From: Nitrosopumilales archaeon
GTDB lineage: Archaea > Thermoproteota > Nitrososphaeria > Nitrososphaerales > Nitrosopumilaceae
DNA: 34,976 bases
Direction of reading: 5' to 3'
Assembly: GCA_900299125.1 (NCBI GenBank)
Contig: OMIR01000043.1
Span: 1 to 34,976 of the forward strand
The number at the start of each line of letters is the position of its first letter. Within the stretch, counting starts at the first letter, position 1. Shown here piece after piece: positions 5,330 to 26,414 of the stretch. Below the pieces are notes generated by a model. That model searched no databases. It was not told the origin of the DNA and saw nothing but the letters and a program-made list of their open reading frames with translations. Made by a program: the position numbers and the translations under genes.

Positions 5330-5377
5330 AAAACGACTTTGCAATTTTGTTATTTGAAAGAGCTAGCTGATTATCAA
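5330..5377 (-). promoter_or_regulatory. Promoter of the small ORF/exported protein/mgtA operon with GATAAT element
   Basis: On the minus strand the element TTTGATAATCA occupies 5367-5377, its GATAAT starting 46 bases before the ATG at 5329. A TATA-like caaataac lies at 5349-5356. The element is a near-palindrome (TGAT-A-ATCA) upstream of the BRE/TATA position, where an archaeal activator would bind. Confidence 0.6.
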
Positions 5378-6304: not shown

Positions 6305-6351
6305 TTGATAATCAGAATTTGTTTTAAATCGATATTTGGTTCTATATTTTT
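6305..6351 (+). promoter_or_regulatory. CBS gene promoter with GATAAT element
   Basis: TTTGATAATCA at 6304-6314 (GATAAT starting 45 bases before the ATG at 6352) is followed by a TATA box gttttaaatc at 6321-6330. The spacing implies a leaderless transcript. Together with 24399-24447 this is one of the two best-matching copies, in the same orientation relative to the gene. Confidence 0.65.
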
Positions 6352-25710: not shown

Positions 25711-26133
25711 CTATTTTATGATTAGAACCGAACAAAGCGCATGATTAGCAATTTTTGATGAGATAGAACCTAAAAGAAACTTGATTACTGCTCCTAATCC
25801 TTTGCTTCCAACTATAATTAGATCTATATTGTGTTGCTTTGAATATTTGACAATCTCATCTGCGATATTTCCCTCCTTTGTAATAATTCTGGACTTGATG
25901 CCCTCTTGATCAGTTATTTTTTGTGCTTTTTGCATGACATCCTTTGCGTATTTGCGAAGAATTTTAGTGTATTCTGAGCCTGCCAATATGTTGGATTTAG
26001 TTGTCTTTTCGATAACGTGGATGAGGGTTAACTCGGAACCATATGATTTTGCCATATCACAAGCAATTCTAATTGCCTTCTCAGAGTATTTTGAACCGTC
26101 ACAGCAGACAAGTATTTGGGAAAATATTCTCAT
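25711..26133 (-). CDS. Universal stress protein (UspA family)
   Basis: 140 residues from the ATG at 26133: MRIFSQILVCCDGSKYSEKA, with the nucleotide signature GSKGLGAVIKFLLGSISSKI and last strand CSVLIIK. Two adjacent Cys (CCDG) sit at the end of the first strand, beside the nucleotide pocket, and could be redox-sensitive (speculation). No GATAAT element sits at its own -46. A TATA-like gttaaatg (about 26167-26174) gives a short leader, but a structured RNA on the same strand ends 70 bases upstream, so the RNA could instead be its 5' leader. Confidence 0.9.
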   Translation of the reverse strand: MRIFSQILVCCDGSKYSEKAIRIACDMAKSYGSELTLIHVIEKTTKSNILAGSEYTKILRKYAKDVMQKAQKITDQEGIKSRIITKEGNIADEIVKYSKQHNIDLIIVGSKGLGAVIKFLLGSISSKIANHALCSVLIIK

Positions 26134-26202
26134 CAATTTTGATCTATCTAGTAAAGATGAAAAAAGCATTTAACAATTTATTTGATTTTTAAAATTGGAA
26201 AA

Positions 26203-26293
26203 GGACGAAAATGCATAAAAAGTCATACTATCGTACGCTCAACTAGGTTATTACACCTTACATTTCCGTCCGTGCGCAAGACGAATCTTGCAC
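26203..26293 (-). ncRNA. Structured small RNA or structured 5' leader, previously unrecognised
   Basis: Reading the minus strand from 26293: hairpin 1 pairs GUGCAAGA with UCUUGC..CAC (26272-26293) around a UUCG loop, with a 2-base bulge. Then GGACGGAAAUG (26271-26261) pairs with CAUUUUCGUCC (26213-26203), 11 bp, extendable to 13. Inside are AGGU-GUAAUA-ACCU (26258-26245) and CGUAC-GAUA-GUAUG (26237-26224). A U-run follows at 26202. Two pairs are G-U on this strand and would be A-C on the plus strand, so the RNA is the minus strand. A TATA box (26315-26322) and GATAAT element (46 bases upstream) point to 26293 as +1. It could act alone or as the leader of the Usp at 25711. Confidence 0.65.
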
Positions 26294-26341
26294 AAATCGT
26301 ATACGTTAAGAAAATAGATAAACTATATGCACGATTATCAA
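26294..26341 (-). promoter_or_regulatory. Promoter of the structured RNA with GATAAT element
   Basis: On the minus strand TTGATAATCG region at 26332-26341 places GATAAT 46 bases before 26293. TATA box tttatcta at 26315-26322. No open reading frame longer than 11 codons starts here. Confidence 0.6.
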
Positions 26342-26367
26342 AAACTGAGAATCGTTACTTACTATCA

Positions 26368-26414
26368 TTGATAATCTAAAAAAGATTTTAAATTAAAAGA
26401 GCAAATCAGATTGC
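26368..26414 (+). promoter_or_regulatory. Usp-Usp operon promoter with GATAAT element
   Basis: TTGATAATCT at 26368-26377 (GATAAT 45 bases before the ATG at 26415), TATA box gattttaaat at 26384-26393. It lies back to back with the RNA promoter, the two elements being 37 bases apart in opposite orientation. Confidence 0.65.

Follow-up and report, generated by a model that had tools for sequence, protein, structure and literature searches.

The locus and its genomic surroundings

Of the nine Usp genes in a 1.56-Mb archaeal assembly, eight lie in the 34,976 nucleotides analysed here (the window), as do most of the CBS genes of the assembly, and the 91-nt minus-strand element described below (26293-26203) therefore sits in the stress island of this genome. 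The island (5435-29240) also encodes RtcB, a thermosome subunit and a VIT-family transporter. The element lies between a divergent Usp gene and a Usp gene on its own strand, the most likely start of the latter being at 26133, which leaves a gap of about 70 bases (Table 1). No reading frame survives within the element itself, as in the window an ATG-TAA frame falls inside the closing stem and many members of the family described below have no ATG. A 65-codon plus-strand frame (26182-26379) that crosses it looks spurious, being on the opposite strand of a covarying RNA.

Table 1. Features of the RNA locus and gene starts preceded by the same promoter-like element (window coordinates)
Feature	Position	Strand	Basis
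5' hairpin, 8-bp stem, UUCG loop	26274..26293	-	fold and pair table of 30 members
Three-way-junction core, the conserved domain of the family	26203..26271	-	models R1 and R2; 46 members
Closing stem P1, 5' strand, conserved ACGGRAAYG	26259..26271	-	fold, covariation
Closing stem P1, 3' strand, conserved CRUUYYCGU	26203..26215	-	fold, covariation
Hairpin P2, GGGU/loop/ACCC type; in the window AGGU-GUAAUA-ACCU	26245..26258	-	pairing in 46 members
Hairpin P3: covarying outer P3a, internal loop, inner P3b; C-NNNG-G tetraloop in most members	26220..26240	-	fold, covariation
Short U-run (UUUU) after the closing stem, probable 3' end or termination region	26199..26202	-	sequence
GATAATC promoter element, common to Usp, CBS and PNPOx genes of the island	26333..26339	-	motif spacing
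TATA-like box TTTAT of the putative RNA promoter, predicted +1 at 26293	26318..26322	-	motif spacing
GATAATC-TATA before the divergent Usp gene (start 26415)	26370..26390	+	motif spacing
GTTAAAT in the spacer between the RNA and the downstream Usp gene, candidate promoter box of the latter	26168..26174	-	conserved in genus, inference
Downstream Usp gene, context only	25711..26133	-	PF00582, E 1e-32
CBS gene starts with GATAATC-TATA 38-42 nt upstream (two genes)	6352; ~24405 (-)
Usp gene starts with GATAATC-TATA 38-42 nt upstream (two genes)	26415; 29240 (-)
PNPOx gene start with GATAATC-TATA 38-42 nt upstream (one gene)	25652	-

A structured RNA under selection

Read on the minus strand, the element has a minimum folding energy of -36.8 kcal/mol versus -18.8 +/- 3.4 for shuffled sequences (z -5.36; none of 200 shuffles folded as well), and the plus strand reaches only -19.9 kcal/mol. 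This energy is also below that of all 4652 stretches of 91 nt sampled from the window (both strands, in steps of 15 bases), the lowest of which was -30.7. The G+C content is 0.43, with 0.19 and 0.25 in the flanks. Nearly all bases of the predicted structure are paired: a closing stem of 13 bp (P1) encloses two hairpins (P2 and P3), and the longest unpaired run is 6 nt.

A nucleotide search returned two relatives within the genus, and these share 30 pairs with the window sequence, none of which is broken and three of which are changed on both sides. A covariance model made from the three sequences (R1) matched in 33 of 200 Nitrosopumilaceae genomes (9 of 22 genera), and a second model (R2), for which the core regions of 30 sequences were used, matched in 43 of 400 genomes of the order, with E-values down to 1e-16. 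In the alignment of the 46 distinct members (A5), 93.4% of the core cells were paired, compared to 84.9% in shuffles; both sides had changed in 15 of the 25 pairs (8.9 in shuffles) and 102 cells were doubly changed (33 in shuffles), values that were not reached in any of 500 shuffles. When the partner was slid by 1-3 columns as a control, pairing fell to 31-47%. A5 was fitted to the covariance model and is consequently biased towards the structure; an unfitted MAFFT alignment of 30 sequences (A4) agrees, with 93.7% paired, 10 pairs doubly changed and 58 such cells versus 22 in shuffles. This comparative evidence supports an RNA structure under selection. The family alignment contains 130 G-U cells versus 24 A-C cells, which cannot be explained from the plus strand, and the RNA strand is therefore the minus strand.

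P1 has 12-13 pairs across the family. P2 takes the form GGGU-RNUR-ACCC, its loop being six bases long in some Nitrosotenuis members, the window among them, and 99.5% of its cells are paired in the 46 members. The junction strands, the P3 loop and the other unpaired sequence vary between genera, whereas the stem sequence (ACGGRAA/UUYYCGU) and the loop types are conserved. A separate, optional module, the 5' hairpin, occurs in 30 of the 46 members; its four inner pairs are intact in all 30, with several pair types at each position, and most of these members have a UUCG, UUUG or GNRA-like loop. A T-rich stretch follows the closing stem in most members of the family, and a scan for bacterial-type terminators at the 3' end of the RNA found nothing.

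Much of this had been proposed in an earlier reading of the window made from sequence alone (the sequence-only reading). Its fold, coordinates and minus-strand assignment held upon folding, shuffling and comparison, as did the three-way fold with a closing stem and two inner hairpins, the higher G+C content than in the flanking intergenic DNA, the strand argument from wobble pairs that are G-U on the minus strand and A-C on the plus strand, and the statement that this is not a tRNA (ARAGORN found no cloverleaf). A minor correction applies to the second inner hairpin, to which a weaker outer section (P3a) and an internal loop in the family have to be added, and the claimed terminal U-run held only in part, as it is short. 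The same reading had asked for a covariance search for compensatory changes in the closing stem and had named homologues that break this stem as a refutation; with the search now run, the opposite was seen, namely compensatory changes throughout the stem in the 46 members.

Occurrence in the Nitrosopumilaceae and the associated promoter element

The members found with R2 in the order belong to 10 genera, all of them Nitrosopumilaceae; genera with the RNA include Nitrosotenuis, Nitrosotalea, Nitrosarchaeum and Nitrosopumilus. Searching samples of the class and the phylum with R2 gave no members outside this family, although the prefilter used for the large samples scored few candidates per genome and absence outside the family is therefore not proven. 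Twelve of the 17 genomes of the window's genus carry the RNA, 14 of 37 in Nitrosotalea (one of them weak) and 9 of 95 in Nitrosopumilus. It occupies a single locus per genome; second matches within a genome proved to be the opposite strand of the same place, and the viral contigs that were searched held no copies. Bacterial matches from a pattern scan (Dolichospermum, Paenibacillus and others) were dismissed as chance, scoring at most 17 bits versus 37-79 bits for true members in the same search. In two genomes of the window's genus (G003 and G014) the RNA has clearly been lost and the neighbouring Usp gene retained, and two others carry shortened forms, a truncated copy (G001) and a 58-nt version (G008). 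The patchy distribution, the loss beside a retained Usp gene and the truncated copy indicate that the RNA is dispensable. Apparent stages of decay were seen in the same Usp intergenic place at loci L107 (~1400-1450; P1 and one hairpin) and L108 (1190-1247; the 58-nt form), and at both of these loci GATAATC or a close variant precedes the GTTAAAT box.

In other genera the RNA occupies different genomic sites, which once more have Usp, CBS, Hsp20 or thermosome genes close by. Of the 46 members, 30 have genes of these types no further than 1.5 kb from the RNA, in several independent contexts. It should be noted that the site is common to the members of a genus, which makes the independent contexts fewer than this count, that no formal background rate is available, and that many Nitrosopumilus and some Nitrosotalea contexts have no stress gene within 1.5 kb. 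The gene that follows the RNA is of no constant type between genera and is often on the opposite strand.

The GATAATC element lies 40 nt before position 26293, which is also its distance to start codons in the window. Together with a TATA box it precedes five start codons in the window by 38-42 nt (Table 1), where 0.08 would be expected by chance (P about 3e-8). Among the 30 family members that have the 5' hairpin, 28 carry the element (mismatches allowed) with its end 35-40 nt upstream of the first hairpin base, and in six hairpin-less members (L032, L110, L111, L112, L141 and L142) it is found ~38-39 nt before P1 instead (counted by eye for four of the six). The promoter thus tracks the 5' end of the RNA with or without the hairpin, which we regard as strong indirect evidence for a transcription start at that place. 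The sequence-only reading had predicted a +1 on the first base of the hairpin (26293), and the family-wide spacing supports this, indirectly and without transcript data; its claim that the RNA and the genes have a promoter element in common held as well, the element-to-start distance being the same. Second RNAs behind the gene-less GATAATC sites at 5369 and 13288 were considered and rejected, as their folds are no better than those of shuffles.

Part of Nitrosotalea has TTTTAAATA and no GATAATC, ~30 nt before P1, and co-regulation with the GATAATC regulon is therefore not universal. In one Nitrosotalea branch (L022, L025, L027, L029, L031 and L033) GATAATC upstream of the RNA is replaced by a conserved GGATCAGTTTTAAATAATTT and variants thereof, which possibly reflects a switch of regulator.

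Possible modes of action of the RNA

Rfam 15 gave no match in the window at gathering thresholds, and at relaxed thresholds the best scores of three divergent members were 7-21 bits, all below the gathering scores. Inspection of 26203-26293 revealed no C/D boxes (RUGAUGA, CUGA) and no ACA box near the 3' end. The RtcB gene of the island raised the idea of a Y RNA, which was rejected after the genome gave no match to PF05731 (Ro/TROVE). Of the criteria for an archaeal intergenic sRNA (itsRNA), that of an intergenic position with an own promoter is satisfied insofar as the promoter can be inferred from a conserved element whose activity has not been shown; the criterion for a riboswitch or leader, a constant class of downstream gene on the same strand, is not.

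Several known RNAs resemble it in part. The archaeal intergenic sRNAs sRNA154 and sRNA162 of Methanosarcina mazei, which act by base pairing to mRNAs (PMC5867862, PMC3510493), are likewise intergenic, have their own promoter, measure 50-500 nt, are conserved within an archaeal family and are linked to a response regulon, but their mRNA targets are known, whereas the new RNA is almost wholly paired, shows no sequence relation that we could find and has an unknown target. Bacterial and eukaryotic Y RNAs are also small and stress-linked, with a long stem formed by their own 5' and 3' ends; the present genome, however, lacks Ro/TROVE, and no Rfam Y RNA matched. Riboswitches with a three-way junction (e.g. 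the purine class) combine a P1 with two hairpins and conserved loops, but the new RNA has neither a constant downstream gene nor an expression platform, nor an Rfam match. Tan1 of the Thalassoarchaea (PMC5069720) is another archaeal ncRNA of unknown function that was defined by its homologues and structure; it measures 229 nt and belongs to marine Euryarchaeota, and no relation is implied.

We consider it very likely that the locus encodes a real, undescribed and independently transcribed structured RNA, on comparative evidence only, since no transcript has been seen. With its transcription inferred, it would represent a new non-coding RNA family of the Nitrosopumilaceae, ranging from ~70 nt (the core) to 91 nt (with the 5' hairpin). 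The comparison supports the fold and its strand, a single copy per genome, a conserved promoter geometry and independence of any one downstream gene. The claim of the sequence-only reading that this is an undescribed minus-strand RNA with its own promoter is thus supported by the covariation, the lack of an Rfam match and the promoter spacing, transcription again being inferred.

A DNA-level palindrome (an operator, integration or replication site) could mimic an RNA, P1 being a long inverted repeat in intergenic DNA, but this is all but excluded by the excess of G-U over A-C on one strand, the covariation of three helices rather than one, the constant distance between promoter and fold, the lack of viral copies and the single copy per genome. 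Hardly more attractive is the idea that a known housekeeping or guide RNA (SRP, RNase P, C/D, H/ACA or Y RNA) has diverged beyond recognition: the size and long closing stem do recall Y RNA and some guide RNAs, but the three divergent members had no useful Rfam score, boxes and Ro/TROVE gene are missing as described above, and searches of many complete genomes from these genera yielded no copy, which is incompatible with a housekeeping role.

A cis leader was one of two options in the sequence-only reading, which placed the RNA 70 bases before the Usp gene; the distance held, and in nearly all RNA-bearing Nitrosotenuis the RNA indeed precedes a same-strand Usp gene by ~70 nt. We nevertheless find a leader or attenuator acting in cis on this gene unlikely, as elsewhere the next gene encodes PCMT, Hsp20, a nuclease or PNPOx or lies on the opposite strand (L017, L021, L022, L025, L027, L110, L111 and L117), a promoter-like box of the Usp gene itself lies between RNA and gene, and G003 and G014 have lost the RNA but not Usp. 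With neighbours and orientation varying in this way, the other option, a trans-acting stress RNA, is favoured. Such an RNA could be antisense, its loops or junction strands pairing with stress-regulon or metabolic mRNAs. This remains possible: the archaeal intergenic sRNAs of known function act by pairing (PMC5867862, PMC3510493), and an own promoter and a regulon link are compatible with it. Against it stands the absence of a conserved seed: no unpaired run in the window RNA exceeds 6 nt, and both the junction strands and the P3 loop differ from genus to genus.

The mechanism that we prefer is a trans-acting, protein-binding one. A factor that reads GATAATC would switch the RNA on together with the Usp/CBS stress regulon, transcription would start at 26293 and end in the U-run, and the RNA would act in trans by specifically binding a protein, which may be a regulator, an RNase or a ribosome-associated factor. 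Protein binding is favoured over antisense pairing because the unpaired runs are short and genus-variable and the stem sequence and loop types are conserved; the preference is modest, as it rests solely on the absence of conserved sequence in the unpaired parts, without binding data. Taken as a whole (stress-regulon RNA, action in trans, protein binding), with transcription and target inferred, the mechanism has the balance of probability slightly on its side. A bolder reading, by analogy, is that of a founding class of protein-binding regulatory RNA for the general stress regulon of ammonia-oxidizing archaea, which would be controlled through GATAATC and would tune a regulator, RNase or ribosome factor under stress in the manner of the bacterial 6S or Csr-type RNAs; we lean slightly against it. 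To our knowledge no archaeal counterpart of a 6S or Csr-type protein-tuning RNA has been described.

The ammonia-oxidizing archaea belong to the most abundant microbes on Earth. The open literature searched (subscription papers excluded) gave no relevant papers on their RNAs and no regulatory RNA of these organisms. The present family comes with a defined structure, a 5' end that can be predicted, a named promoter element and a regulon. Archaeal intergenic sRNAs are already known; what is new is an RNA family within them that has an unusual, almost fully paired design and no Rfam family.

The analysis also brings to light a candidate stress-regulon promoter (GATAATC-N8..11-TATA) of ammonia-oxidizing archaea, inferred purely from the DNA and with its reader protein unidentified. 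Occurrences of this pattern at 6307, 24444, 25699, 26339, 26370 and 29289 have a fixed spacing to (leaderless) start codons. Outside the window, one further gene start was seen in the genome at such spacing from the strict pattern, that of what we take to be a PII/GlnB-like gene on reading its sequence, without a family search. This gene (L121; G000:C29:4693-4715, minus strand) adjoins a CBS-domain gene, which suggests a link between nitrogen signalling and the regulon.
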